Below are positions 17,356 to 31,039 of a stretch of DNA of 64,000 nucleotides, piece by piece; positions within the stretch are counted from its first letter, which is position 1; every line of letters starts with the position of its first letter. The notes below the pieces were generated by a model. The model was given only the letters and a program-made list of their open reading frames with translations, did no database searches and was not told the DNA's origin. Where the stretch lies: assembly GCA_024275195.1 (NCBI GenBank), contig JAJRZP010000160.1, positions 1-64,000 on the forward strand, read 5' to 3'. The stretch is from Chloroflexota bacterium (lineage in GTDB: Bacteria; Chloroflexota; Dehalococcoidia; Lucifugimonadales; Lucifugimonadaceae). The position numbers were made by a program, and so were the translations under genes.

Positions 17356-17622
17356 TGTGAAACGCTGTGAACGGGAGTAGTACCGAGCATGGTGCGTTAG
17401 AGAGAGCCGGTGGTTGGTGTGAACCGGTACGTGCCACTTCGAGAACTCGCCCATGAGCGGTCGATCTGAAGTCCGGTGAACCGGATATAGGATCGAACGG
17501 AATTGGCCACGTTACGGCTTTTCGAGCGGTCAGGCATTCGAGAGGAATCTGGATGCATGGCAATTGAAGGTGGTACCGCGGGATACAAGTCTCGTCCTTT
17601 GTGAGGGGCGGGATTTTTTTTT
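17356..17622 (+). promoter_or_regulatory. T-box riboswitch, leucine-type, upstream of ilvB
   Basis: The T-box core AAGGTGGTACCGCGG (17567-17581) is present, followed by a terminator whose arms TCTCGTCC (17590-17597) and GGGGCGGGA (17605-17613) end in nine T. Upstream are the Stem I features GGGAGTAGTA and the apical GGTGTGAACC region. The specifier loop appears to read GAA-CTC-G, making CUC (leucine) the likely codon. T-boxes bind uncharged tRNA; pairing of the tRNA acceptor end with the core prevents termination. Leucine starvation would thus turn on ilvB-ilvN-ilvC-leuA. The T-box call is firm; the specifier is read by alignment to the second T-box in this window. Confidence 0.92.
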
Positions 17623-17724
17623 GCCTGCCGCAATTGTGAGAACGATTCGATTTTTATTAGTTAGTTGCCAGTAGATGATAGGAAGGAATTGCCGAGTTAT
17701 TTCGGCGATCAACCGGGAACCGTT

Positions 17725-19407
17725 ATGTCCAAGCACCTCAGTGGAAGTCAGATTGTCTGTGAAGCCCTCCTTAACGAGGGTGTCAGCGTCGTATTTGGCA
17801 TTCCGGGTGGCGCGATTCTTCCGCTCTACGCCGTTCTTTCGCAGTACCCCGACCTGCGCCACATCCTGTCTCGACACGAGCAGGGAGCTGCACATTCAGC
17901 CGATGGATACGCACGTTCAACCGGTAAGGTCGGCGTCGCATTCGCTACTTCCGGCCCCGGTGCAACGAACCTCGTAACCGGGCTGGCAACTGCCATGATG
18001 GATTCTGTTCCGATGGTTGCTATTACAGGTCAGGTCGGTCGCGCCGCGATTGGTACTGACGCATTCCAGGAAACTGACATCACGGGCGCAACCCTGCCCG
18101 TCACGAAGCACAACTATCTCGTCATGCGTGCCGAAGATCTCGGTGCGACCATCCATGAGGCGTTCCATATCGCACGAACCGGTCGCCCCGGTCCTGTGCT
18201 GATCGACATCCCAAAGGACGTGTTCACTGAGATGGGTGAATACGATCCTGACGCGCCGATCGATCTGCCTGGATACAACGTTCCGGGCAAGGCAGATGAG
18301 TCACAGATTGACGCCGCCGCCAGATTGATCAACGAAGCTGAACGACCGGTGATTCTTGCTGGCCATGGCGTCGTGTTGTCGAGATCATTCGACGAATTGA
18401 AGGAACTTGCCGAGAAGGCGCAGATTCCAGTTGTCACAACACTACTTGGTATTTCCTCCTTCCCAGAAGATCACGTGCTTAGCACTGGATTTCCGGGCAT
18501 GCACGGTATGGCGTATGCGTCACTCGCCGTCGATCAGGCAGATTTGATAATCAATTTCGGTAGTCGATTTGACGACCGAATCGTTGGCGATGCCAAGCGA
18601 TTCTCGACTGGATCAAAGAAGATCCATGTCGATATTGACCCGGCTGAGATCAACAAGAGCATTCGTGTTGATGCGCCGGTTGTCGGCAACCTTAAAGATG
18701 TATTCGGTCAACTGATCCCCAAAGTGAAGCAGACCACACACGTAGAGTGGTTGCAGCACATTGAGCATTTGAAGGCCGAGCATCCCTCACTGAAGATCCC
18801 TGAGAGCGATCGCTTGATGGGTCAGCATGTCGTAAAAGCACTCTCTGATGTCACAAAGGGTGACGCGATCATCACTACAGGCGTGGGGCAGCACCAGATG
18901 TGGGCTGCCCAGCACTACCAGTTCAAGAACGCGAACTCATGGCTGTCCTCAGGTGGCGCTGGAACGATGGGTTACGAGGTTCCATCCGCGATTGGTGCGC
19001 AGGTCGGTAACCCGGACAAGCTGGTCTGGTCGATCTGTGGTGACGGTGGCTTTCAGATGACTCTGATGGAGCTTGCAACGGCTGTCGAGAACCACCTCCC
19101 GGTGAAATACGCGATTCTCAACAATAATCACCTTGGAATGATTACCCAGTGGCAGGGCTTCTTTTACAACGGTGATTATCAGGCGGAGACGTATACGGCC
19201 AACCCGGATTTCGTGAAGTTGGCAGAGGCCTACGGAATCAAGGGAATACGTGTCAGGACGCAAGACGAATTGGAGGCGGCGATCAATGAAGCAAACGCTC
19301 ACGACGGCCCGGTTGTTGTCGATTTCGTCATCGAGAAGGTTGATGACCTCTACCCAATGATTCCTGCAGGCCAAAGCGTTCAGGAATTGATCGAGGATCC
19401 GAACTAA
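17725..19407 (+). CDS. ilvB: Acetolactate synthase large subunit
   Basis: Thiamine-diphosphate enzyme making acetolactate and acetohydroxybutyrate, the common step to Val, Leu and Ile. Signatures are VVFGIPGGAILPLY, the catalytic Glu in SRHEQGAAHSADGYAR, SGPGATNLVTGLA, and the ThDP motif CGDGGFQMTLMELATAVEN ending near LNNNHLGM. The track begins at a TTG at 17665. The ATG at 17725 gives MSKHLSGSQIVCEAL, the usual family N-terminus, and 560 residues, so I prefer it. It is first in the T-box operon and its TAA overlaps the ilvN ATG by one base. Confidence 0.95.
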   Translation: MSKHLSGSQIVCEALLNEGVSVVFGIPGGAILPLYAVLSQYPDLRHILSRHEQGAAHSADGYARSTGKVGVAFATSGPGATNLVTGLATAMMDSVPMVAITGQVGRAAIGTDAFQETDITGATLPVTKHNYLVMRAEDLGATIHEAFHIARTGRPGPVLIDIPKDVFTEMGEYDPDAPIDLPGYNVPGKADESQIDAAARLINEAERPVILAGHGVVLSRSFDELKELAEKAQIPVVTTLLGISSFPEDHVLSTGFPGMHGMAYASLAVDQADLIINFGSRFDDRIVGDAKRFSTGSKKIHVDIDPAEINKSIRVDAPVVGNLKDVFGQLIPKVKQTTHVEWLQHIEHLKAEHPSLKIPESDRLMGQHVVKALSDVTKGDAIITTGVGQHQMWAAQHYQFKNANSWLSSGGAGTMGYEVPSAIGAQVGNPDKLVWSICGDGGFQMTLMELATAVENHLPVKYAILNNNHLGMITQWQGFFYNGDYQAETYTANPDFVKLAEAYGIKGIRVRTQDELEAAINEANAHDGPVVVDFVIEKVDDLYPMIPAGQSVQELIEDPN

Positions 19408-26182: not shown

Positions 26183-27292
26183 ATGGACGTACGGATCGCA
26201 GTTCTTGGTGGCGACGGCATTGGACCAGAGGTCACGGCCGAATCGGTAAAGGTTCTCGATGCCATTGCGCGTCGATTCGGGCATGAGTTCACGTACGTGA
26301 CTGGCCCAGTTGGCGGTGCCGCCATAGATGCGACTGGGAGTGCGCTACCAGCCGATACGATGAACATCGTCCTTGGTTCGGATGCTGTGCTTTTCGGAGC
26401 TGTAGGCGGGCCGAAATGGGACGACCCACTTGCGAAGATACGACCTGAAGACGGTATTCTTGCTCTCCGAAAAGGACTCGGGCTATTCGCCAATCTTCGA
26501 CCCGCCCGAGTGTACAAACAGCTAATCGACTGTTCTCCGTTGCGCCCGGAGCTTCTTGTCGATGTCGACTTCATCATTGTTCGAGAGCTTACCGGTGGTC
26601 TCTATTTCGGCAAGCCTAAGCGTCGGTGGGAGAACTCCCGTGGTCGCCGAGCAGTCGACACTCTCGCTTACTCAGAAAAAGAGATTGAGCGAGTCGTTCG
26701 AGTAGCATTCGAGTTGGCGCGAGATCGTAAGAAGCGAGTTCACTCGCTCGACAAGATGAATGTAATGGAGTCTTCACGGCTCTGGCGCGAAATCGCAACA
26801 GAGGTCGGAATCGAGTATCCCGATGTCGAGTTGATCCACATGCTGGCCGACAACGCCGCGATGCAGATCATCACGAACCCGGTGATATTCGATGTAATTG
26901 TTGCCGAGAACACGTTTGGTGACATCATTTCCGATGAAGCGGCTGTTATCGGCGGCTCACTCGGTATGTTGCCATCGGCTTCCCTGTCGTCGCTCCCTCC
27001 GAAGAACGGACGACGCAGGCGCGGTGGAAAGCCGGCGTTGTACGAACCGATTCATGGTTCAGCTCCAGATATCGCCGGTAAATCGCTTGCGAATCCGATG
27101 GCTTCGATTCTGAGCGCAGCAATGTTACTCCGCCTGTCACTTGGTTTGAACGCCGAGGCTGAAGCCATCGAAAACGCCGTGGATTCGATCCTCTCTGAAG
27201 GCTACCGCACCAGCGATATTGCCACGGGTGGCGAGCGACCCCTCACCACCAACCAGGTTGGCGATATGATCGCCGGTCTTGTCGCCGGTTAG
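26183..27292 (+). CDS. leuB: 3-isopropylmalate dehydrogenase
   Basis: A 369-residue NAD-dependent oxidative decarboxylase for the third leucine step. It begins IAVLGGDGIGPEVTAE, has the substrate region RELTGGLYFG, DKMNVMESSRLWR, and the NAD site EPIHGSAPDIAGKSLANP. An insertion of about six charged residues (KNGRRRRGGK) precedes that last motif. It ends the leu gene run, 127 bases after leuD; that gap shows no clear structure. Confidence 0.95.
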   Translation: MDVRIAVLGGDGIGPEVTAESVKVLDAIARRFGHEFTYVTGPVGGAAIDATGSALPADTMNIVLGSDAVLFGAVGGPKWDDPLAKIRPEDGILALRKGLGLFANLRPARVYKQLIDCSPLRPELLVDVDFIIVRELTGGLYFGKPKRRWENSRGRRAVDTLAYSEKEIERVVRVAFELARDRKKRVHSLDKMNVMESSRLWREIATEVGIEYPDVELIHMLADNAAMQIITNPVIFDVIVAENTFGDIISDEAAVIGGSLGMLPSASLSSLPPKNGRRRRGGKPALYEPIHGSAPDIAGKSLANPMASILSAAMLLRLSLGLNAEAEAIENAVDSILSEGYRTSDIATGGERPLTTNQVGDMIAGLVAG

Positions 27293-27301
27293 TCTGAGCG
27301 G

Positions 27302-28465
27302 CTAATCAAGCTCGTCGAAGCGGTCGCCCCAGAACTGGGTGTGAGGATTGAAGCCTTCCCATGCCCAGTAGTAAGCCGATATGAACGGCGCTCGCTGAAG
27401 TATCGTGCCCTTCAGAGGTCCCTCGGTTGCAACACCGGCTTCGATATCCCACGTGGAGCCAGTTTCCGTGTCCGCAACTCGCCTGCCTGACGACAACCCA
27501 GAGCCTTCGACAATCTCGAATGTCAGACGATCAGGCAACGCCTCCGGTCCGTTAAGTCCGGTTATTGGGGTTCGCAGGAAGACATGGATTACGCGCGAGT
27601 CCCTGTCGGCGAAGACTGCAACCGGGAACTCTCCAACAGATTCATTCACGACACCTTCGATCGCCGAAGATGCGAAGTAGAAACCCTTGGCGGCATCTCC
27701 TATCGACACACCGATAACGAATCTGTCTATTGGGCTAAAGCCTCTGTATTCGAGATTGGCCCGCTCGTCGACCAGAAGCTTCGTTTCTGGCTGACGACTA
27801 AGCCACGTTTTCCACGGGACAAACTCGTACGGAAGGAGCGTCAGCCGAGTTCCGGTCAACTCGCCCTCGATCGCGGCCCCCCACGGCTGCGACCATACGC
27901 TTTTGGTCTCCCAATCCCACCACGTCATCGCGCTTTTGAACAGCGCTCCTTCGTTCCCGAAGGTGTATTCTTCTCCATCGATTCGCCGATCATGCACGAG
28001 ACCGGTGTAGCAAATCGGTCACCAACTGACCAGCACCGGGGTACCACCTACCTCGTCATTGACCATCTCTCTGACACGGAGGAGGCCGATTGGATACGCT
28101 CTGGCATCGCCGTTGATAACCAGCCCCATGACCATCTCATCCATGCGAAGCGTCGACTCACTCGGCGAAACGAACTTCGGCGTGTAGATCGGTTCGATCG
28201 CATCTCTGGGGAGTCGCTCTCGCTCATAGAAGCCAAGATCAATTTCGCGGTCAAGCTGGCGGATTTCAGGGTTAGGGTTCAACTCGACGAACGGCTCTAC
28301 GTCGAATTCGGGCAATGAAGGTGGCGCCGTCGCTGACGGCTCGACTTGGGCAGTCGGTTGAGCGGTGGTCGTGGCGCAGGCAACTGCCAGTCCGACAACT
28401 GACAAACTTATCGCGAGGACGAACCATCGCCCCAACAACGCCGACCGCGGCGAACTTGAAATCAT
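27302..28465 (-). CDS. DUF3179 lipoprotein with in-frame UGA, candidate selenoprotein (Sec149)
   Basis: The track splits this gene into two minus ORFs (28019..28465 and 27302..27997). Both are in one frame, separated only by a TGA at 28021-28019 and seven sense codons. Read through, the protein has 387 residues: a lipoprotein signal with lipobox LAVAC near residue 30, a Pro/Ala linker, and a full DUF3179 domain (IEPIYTPKFVS, RAYPIGLLRVREMVNDEVGG, then VSW-UGA-PICYTG, HDRRIDGEEYTFGNEGALF, SVWSQPWG). DUF3179 proteins normally read CPxC here, so the UGA replaces the first Cys and gives a UxxC redox pair (Sec149, Cys152). No other lesion is seen and a SECIS-like hairpin follows. Function of the family is unknown; a redox role on the outer membrane face is inference. 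The alternative is a recent nonsense mutation. Confidence 0.75.
27986..28018 (-). promoter_or_regulatory. Candidate bacterial SECIS element in the DUF3179 gene
   Basis: Directly after the UGA the mRNA can fold with 5' arm CCGAUUUGC and 3' arm GCA-U-GAUCGG, nine pairs with a bulged U. Above it come a second bulged U on the 5' side, two pairs (AC:GU) and an apical loop ACCGGUCUC. E. coli fdhF has the same upper plan: a bulged U, two base pairs and a loop containing GGUCU. GGUCU starts 16 bases after the UGA here versus 19 in fdhF. Folding was done by eye. Confidence 0.65.
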
Positions 28466-28693: not shown

Positions 28694-31039
28694 ATGACAA
28701 ACCAGATAACTGAAGCCGATCTACAGAGCGCACTACCTGATGTTGAGTCAGATCAAAAGCTATCTGGAATTACCGGCGAGGCAACGATTCATCGTGATGA
28801 ATGGGGCATTCCGCACATCACGGCTGAAAACGAAGCCGACTTGTTCTTTGCACAGGGATTTGCGACTGCACAGGATCGCCTATTTCAGATGGATTTCGAT
28901 CGTCTACGCTGCCTGGGCCGATCCTCCGAACATCTGGGTGTCCACGGACTTGCCCAGGACAGGCTCATGCGACGTCGGTCGCTGAGGATAGTCTCGAAGC
29001 GCGATCTCGAAGTTTGCAGTACCGAGGCCCGGGCGATGATCACTGCCTACACCGCTGGCGTAAACGCTTTTATCGAATCGGACTCCCCGCTTCCCGTTGA
29101 GTACACGCTGACCGGCACGAAGCCCGAGAAATGGGAAGACTGGCACTGTATTCTGGTCTACAAGGTGCGGAACACGGCTGAGGGTTCGTTTCAGGCGAAG
29201 CTCTGGCTGGCAAAACTTGCAGCCGAGATAGGACCCGAGCGCACTGCGGCGATCTCTCCCGGGAGTCAACCGGGCGCTTTGATGACTGTGCCTCCGGGTG
29301 CTGAATACTCTGGCCCAGCGTTGAATGCCATCGAAGAACTGACCAACGTTGTGAACGCCACACAGTCGCTCCGTGAGACTGACGGCGGATCGAACGGTTG
29401 GGCCATTTCTGGCGACCGCACGGAATCAGGGCTTCCTCTCGTGGCCGGCGATTCCCATCGCGGGCTGGAAGTTCCCAACGTCTACTATCAGGTACATCTC
29501 AAATCACCCGATTTTCAGGTTCTCGGACATTCGATCCCCGGTGTTCCTATGGCGATGCATTTCGCCCACAACGAGAATATTGGATGGGGCATGACGCATG
29601 GAGGCGCTGACACTCAGGATCTCTATGTTGAGCAACTTCGCCGAGCAGACGGCAAGGTCGAGTACCTCTTCGAAGGAAACTGGCTCGAAGCGGTCCGTTC
29701 GGTCGAAACGATATCAGTAAGGAAAGGAAAATCTGAGGAAGTCGAAATCGTCGAAACCCATCACGGTTCGATAATTTCCGGTAGCGTCGATTCCGGTTGG
29801 GGAATTGCGATTTCTGACCCCGGTTCGAGGAGCGGAACCAGATGGGTCGATGCCGCATATGGGGCTATGAAATCGTACTCTGCCGACGAACTGGAGAAGG
29901 CGTTCGATACGTGGACCGATCGCGTCAACAACTACCCCTATGCCGACATTCACGGAAATTTCGGCTACCTGTTCAAAGGGCGAGTGCCAGCCAGAAGTGC
30001 AGTGAATGGCTGGGGGCCGGTGCCGGGTTGGACAGGGGAGCACGAATGGAGCGGATTCATCCCGAATCCAGATTTACCGCGCTCGAAGAACCCTGATTCA
30101 GGCTGGATCGTTACCTGCAACCAGCGTGTTGTCGACCACGACTACGAACACTATCTGACCCACCTGTATGGAACAGACTACCGGGCGCGGCGGATACGAG
30201 ATCGCATCAATGACCTGTCGGACCGTAAAGCAAGTGTCGAGGATATGTCTTCGATCCACGCCGATACTGTGTCGATACCCGCTGCGGCTCTCAGCAACGC
30301 GATCATCGCTCTTCCGTCGCTGGACGGCATATACGCAGCGGCGGCAGCCTTGTTGGTCGAATGGGATCACGACCTGAAGGAAGATTCATCGGCTGCTGCG
30401 GTGTATGGCGCAGCGAATCGCGAGCTCAACAAACAACTTGCGATCGCCGCGTACGGATCCCTTGCTGGAGGGGTGACGGGGGAGACGGTCGATGCCGGTG
30501 CGGAAGATCAACTGCGTCGGCAACTTAAACCGGATTTCATTCGACGGCTCGGCGATAGCTCACTTGCGGACGCACCATATGGGTTCGACACTGATGAGAT
30601 TGTTGAGAAATCATTCAGGGCGGGAGTCGATTATCTCGTCGAACGTCTCGGCGACAACTCCGACAAATGGCGTTGGGGCGATCTGCACAAGACCGAGCAC
30701 GTACACCCACTGGCAGGCGCGTTCCCAGAATCGGCCGACCAGCTCAACCCCCCAAGGGTAGAGGCGTCGGGCGACGGTGATGTGCCGTTCGCCAGCGCAA
30801 GCCCGACCCCTTCCGAGTTCGCGATAAAAACTGGACCGATCAACAGGTATATCCACGACCCCTCGAACTGGAGCAACGGTCGCTGGATAGTTCCGCTCGG
30901 ATCCTCCGGGCACCCGGCTAGCCCGCACTACTCCGACCAGCAGGAAAAATGGGCAAAAGTTGAGACGATACCGCAACTCTGGGACTGGGCGGAGATCGCA
31001 GCCAGTGCCTTATCGACCCAGCGCTTGCTGCCCGAATAA
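28694..31039 (+). CDS. Penicillin acylase (Ntn-hydrolase) family protein
   Basis: A 781-residue member of the penicillin amidase / acyl-homoserine-lactone acylase family (peptidase S45). The alpha part starts VTIHRD-like (GEATIHRDEWGIPHI) and includes FATAQDRLFQMD. The autocatalytic cleavage site and N-terminal nucleophile are in GGSNGWAISG (about Ser233), followed by VAGDSHRGLEVPNVYYQ and, in the beta part, YADIHGNFGYLFKGRVP. These enzymes hydrolyse amides of aromatic or fatty acids; the substrate cannot be assigned. Unlike secreted relatives, no signal peptide is visible after the ATG (MTNQITEADL). GAAG precedes the start. A stem-loop follows the stop. Confidence 0.88.
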   Translation: MTNQITEADLQSALPDVESDQKLSGITGEATIHRDEWGIPHITAENEADLFFAQGFATAQDRLFQMDFDRLRCLGRSSEHLGVHGLAQDRLMRRRSLRIVSKRDLEVCSTEARAMITAYTAGVNAFIESDSPLPVEYTLTGTKPEKWEDWHCILVYKVRNTAEGSFQAKLWLAKLAAEIGPERTAAISPGSQPGALMTVPPGAEYSGPALNAIEELTNVVNATQSLRETDGGSNGWAISGDRTESGLPLVAGDSHRGLEVPNVYYQVHLKSPDFQVLGHSIPGVPMAMHFAHNENIGWGMTHGGADTQDLYVEQLRRADGKVEYLFEGNWLEAVRSVETISVRKGKSEEVEIVETHHGSIISGSVDSGWGIAISDPGSRSGTRWVDAAYGAMKSYSADELEKAFDTWTDRVNNYPYADIHGNFGYLFKGRVPARSAVNGWGPVPGWTGEHEWSGFIPNPDLPRSKNPDSGWIVTCNQRVVDHDYEHYLTHLYGTDYRARRIRDRINDLSDRKASVEDMSSIHADTVSIPAAALSNAIIALPSLDGIYAAAAALLVEWDHDLKEDSSAAAVYGAANRELNKQLAIAAYGSLAGGVTGETVDAGAEDQLRRQLKPDFIRRLGDSSLADAPYGFDTDEIVEKSFRAGVDYLVERLGDNSDKWRWGDLHKTEHVHPLAGAFPESADQLNPPRVEASGDGDVPFASASPTPSEFAIKTGPINRYIHDPSNWSNGRWIVPLGSSGHPASPHYSDQQEKWAKVETIPQLWDWAEIAASALSTQRLLPE

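Follow-up and report, generated by a model that had tools for sequence, protein, structure and literature searches.

The DNA analysed here, which we call the window, is a stretch of 64,000 nucleotides in the 2.7 Mb genome, assembled into 171 contigs, of a SAR202 bacterium from the deep ocean. On its minus strand, positions 28465 to 27302 form a single frame of 387 residues that ends at a TAG and is interrupted by one internal stop, a TGA at 28021-28019. This codon divides the gene into two open reading frames (28019-28465 and 27302-27997, both minus strand), and apart from it the 387 codons contain no lesion. The translation thus agrees with a preliminary description of this DNA, which had proposed one continuous frame encoding an intact DUF3179 lipoprotein. 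The read-through product matches DUF3179 (PF11376) in a profile search with an E-value of 1.5e-56 and 192.5 bits, against a curated cut-off of 27. The predicted N-terminal signal peptide (28465-28369) includes a lipobox-like LAVAC, and a Cys is found at this position in eight of the nine aligned orthologues; the signal type is deduced from the sequence. The TGA is codon 149 and lies in the context VSW-UGA-PIC-YTG, where it would supply the U of a UPIC motif. The C of the same motif, a putative resolving Cys, is residue 152 and is encoded by the TGC at 28012-28010.

The gene is flanked on one side by a convergent leuB-type isopropylmalate dehydrogenase (26183-27292, plus strand) and on the other by a penicillin-acylase-like gene (28694-31039, plus strand), both named from their sequences, and this arrangement is conserved in the orthologous SAR202 loci. 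A search of the neighbourhood and a fusion scan found no redox partner gene, and the conserved leu operon and acylase suggest none. Elsewhere in the window, a T-box leader occurs at 17358-17602, upstream of an open reading frame at 17665-19407. A scan of the window for further read-through genes gave no convincing candidate, but it is not exhaustive, as even the known DUF3179 gene was removed by the overlap filter used.

DUF3179 is present in 38 of the 60 related genomes that were searched, and dozens of the copies contain exactly one TGA. When the TGA is read through, 54 distinct homologues from many genera and families have U at the motif column and Cys at +3, and another 34 distinct homologues have Cys at both positions. 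These two groups bear out the earlier proposal that the TGA replaces the first Cys of a CPxC motif, and they include the homologues with TGA at the same codon that the preliminary description had advised looking for. Besides VSW-U-PIC, the motif types include VTW-U-PLC, VTY-U-TLC and VTY-U-ILC, and either UxxC or CxxC is almost invariant at the site. One paralogue subgroup (L036, L038 and L057) has SPVTYSARAF in place of CPLC, and hence no Cys pair.

The source genome itself has at least five DUF3179 genes, three of which contain the TGA (those in the window and on contigs C68 and C167). The named relatives that have an orthologue are SAR202 Chloroflexota, including Candidatus Lucifugimonas marina JH1073, and Ca. 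L. marina encodes several TGA copies of the family. Among other Chloroflexota outside the class, six genomes have TGA copies at the motif and all six are selA-positive, whereas the four DUF3179 genomes that lack selA have no TGA copies. The same contrast is uninformative among near relatives, where DUF3179 is entirely absent from the seven genomes that have no selA above the cut-off. In one further Chloroflexota genome (G132), the copy contains both a TGA and a TAG, neither of them at the motif, and looks broken. The UxxC also occurs in a match from an Armatimonadetes MAG. A contig labelled as proteobacterial (L118, JACZSK010000016.1) has the SAR202 gene order around its DUF3179 gene and is probably misbinned or mislabelled.

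Judged from sequence profiles, DUF3179 is an internal tandem duplication in which the Cys/Sec pair is kept only in the first repeat. Repeat 1 (about residues 111-233; 28135-27766, minus strand) bears the UxxC, while repeat 2 (about residues 246-379; 27730-27330) is without it, and the two match each other with an E-value of 6e-33 over 119 columns in a profile comparison with hhalign. Two AlphaFold models, with pLDDT values of 68 and 81 and pTM values of 0.53 and 0.69, also delimit the repeats. The only credible Foldseek matches of both models are Rieske proteins (probability 0.84-0.96 for the Rieske ferredoxins, none reaching an E-value of 0.001), and the best are Rieske-type ferredoxins and oxygenases (PDB 3gce, 5cxm and 3gkq). 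Profile comparison with Rieske proteins by hhalign lends this weak support; the score of repeat 2 was reached by one of 120 column shuffles and that of repeat 1 by 19 of 120. By eye, the DxETGSxWDxxxGxxxxGP of repeat 2 resembles the Rieske loop 2 pattern CxxHGSxFDxxTGxxxxGP, which suggests a tentative loop-2 register for repeat 2; the UxxC is tentatively placed in Rieske loop 1. Unlike the Rieske proteins, DUF3179 is tandemly duplicated and has UxxC; the window protein contains no CxH or CxxH cluster ligands, the Rieske His ligands included, and has the UPIC motif instead. DUF3179 shares the Sec-x-x-Cys motif and a likely redox role with the thioredoxin-like UxxC selenoproteins; however, neither Pfam nor the Foldseek hits listed gave a thioredoxin fold. 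Sequence searches of the PDB returned nothing usable, and a viral structure library gave one match below an E-value of 0.001, to an uncharacterised protein. We tentatively suggest, at somewhat less than even confidence, that the tandem fold of DUF3179 derives from Rieske proteins and has lost their Fe-S ligands, that its first cluster-binding loop is now a Sec-x-x-Cys redox site, and that it expanded among SAR202 lipoproteins.

What the Sec/Cys pair does can be read in two ways. The first is that Sec149 and Cys152 have a selenenylsulfide redox role outside the cytoplasm, which we consider probable. The second is that the pair (CPLC in the Cys forms) acts as a metal-binding site in place of the Fe-S ligands of a Rieske-like fold and is not a thiol redox switch. 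The predicted Rieske-like fold would suit such a site, and CxxC pairs often bind metal; the missing Rieske His ligands argue against it. A further argument against it is that many described bacterial UxxC selenoproteins are thiol oxidoreductases (PMC2398784), and overall a metal site appears unlikely, at perhaps one chance in a few. The most likely function is that of an exported, lipid-anchored Sec-Cys redox protein.

A candidate SECIS hairpin lies within the coding region at 28005-27986 (minus strand), with the stem CCGGUC/GAUCGG and the loop UCGUGCAU. The published bacterial SECIS model places the loop 16-37 nucleotides from the UGA and a G within the first two loop positions. If a U-A pair closes the loop, the loop becomes CGUGC, 20 nucleotides after the UGA, and the hairpin agrees with the model; with a plain 6-bp stem the G would be at the third loop position. 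Ordinary minimum free energy folding showed no signal in the 106 nucleotides surrounding the TGA (z 0.21), which made a synonymous-recoding test on the hairpin region necessary, and an Rfam search found no match to a SECIS family. In the recoding test, the 27 nucleotides from +10 to +36 of each gene were folded and compared with 400 synonymous recodings. The mean z was -1.93 in the TGA genes versus -0.08 in the Cys genes (Mann-Whitney p 3.8e-11, an optimistic value since the sequences are related); the window's own hairpin taken alone is borderline (p 0.052). Among 18 sequences of the window type, the stem CCGGUC/GACCGG pairs throughout except for one C-A in one sequence, and the window's copy has a G-U pair. 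Synonymous identity across ten orthologues of the window's subfamily is 0.88 in the hairpin codons versus 0.42 elsewhere, and when 235 six-codon segments are ranked by conservation, the top eight all start +1 to +8 past the TGA.

Purifying selection on the amino acid sequence also appears to be similar before and after the TGA. After it, pN is 0.15-0.33 versus a pS of 0.58-0.75, and the values before it are similar; dS is saturated, and so these ratios are indicative only. Some window-type copies in the same genus have decayed: L063 and L113 are broken by frameshifts in genomes G004 and G010, with multiple lesions in G010. The gene is therefore dispensable in the genus, and its role is probably conditional. 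In the G010 copy, the +3 Cys is replaced by Ser. The Ca. L. marina orthologue (CP046147.1; L116, 6379-6438) has an extra in-frame TGA eight codons upstream of the Sec codon and not at a Cys column; this is more likely a nonsense mutation than a second Sec codon. Paralogues of the Cys type VTFCPLC (L065, L066, L067 and L068) are split over frames in several genomes of the genus.

These broken copies, the MAG origin of the sequence and the single base that separates TGC or TGT from TGA would all fit a pseudogene or a sequencing error, with a Cys codon turned into a stop by chance. Such a change was already thought unlikely in the preliminary description, and independent mutations to a stop cannot account for a TGA that recurs at this very codon across many genera and families, far beyond chance. 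The 54 homologues with this TGA include some from single-contig genomes, the hairpin and the synonymous freezing follow the TGA, and the window gene has no second lesion and intact selection past the TGA. We regard a pseudogene or error as very improbable.

The source genome has the selenocysteine machinery for which the preliminary description had proposed a search. It contains a tRNA-Sec with the TCA anticodon (UCA), and profile searches found selA (511 bits), the N-terminal part of selB (283 bits) and selD (371 bits), each above its own cut-off. The selB gene is in two pieces, an N-terminal part and a C-terminal one, each located at a contig end, as expected of a single gene that the assembly broke. 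The selD gene itself has one in-frame TGA (G000:C68:7591-8628, L190) and lies about 3.2 kb from a second TGA-containing DUF3179 gene. Reassignment or general read-through of TGA, for example as Trp, is hardly credible: TGA does end only four of the 37 window open reading frames of at least 250 amino acids that have a stop, but it still terminates genes, including orthologous DUF3179 genes with an internal TGA, its column aligns with Cys and not Trp, and the selenocysteine machinery is complete.

Taken from sequence evidence, the reading of TGA 149 as selenocysteine is strongly supported. SelB with Sec-tRNA(UCA) would decode the UGA, steered by the hairpin 13-32 nucleotides downstream, and the product, given its lipoprotein-like N-terminus, would be exported and lipid-anchored. 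The models predict two pseudo-repeats, each probably of a Rieske-like beta fold, and Sec149-Pro-Ile-Cys152 of the first would most likely serve as an extracytoplasmic redox centre that cycles between selenol/thiol and selenenylsulfide. We are confident of the general conclusion that the gene encodes a SECIS-guided, exported and lipid-anchored selenoprotein of the known DUF3179 family, with repeats that are probably Rieske-like and a UxxC that is probably redox-active.

Contrary to what the preliminary description had supposed, the family is not new. A DUF3179 domain-containing protein (pfam11376, UxxC/T) is among the selenoprotein families listed in two reviews, from 2022 (PMC9312934) and 2026 (PMC13188914), and the former cites Zhang and Gladyshev 2007, which studied a deltaproteobacterial symbiont of Olavius. 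The window gene has the same Pfam domain, UxxC and Cys homologues at the Sec column and so is very likely a solid new member. It differs from the listed case in its SAR202 Chloroflexota origin, its multi-paralogue expansion and its own SECIS type. What is new here is the SAR202-wide expansion, the conserved SECIS type, the internal duplication and the finding that the only credible fold matches are Rieske proteins.

Ca. L. marina, a relative of the source, is in culture (PMC10444878) and has several TGA copies; therefore, selenium use and the role of DUF3179 are directly testable. Automatic annotation would split such genes and so hide a multi-copy selenoprotein group of widespread ocean bacteria. 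If true, a Sec-Cys centre on a Rieske-like scaffold would be an unusual redox design.
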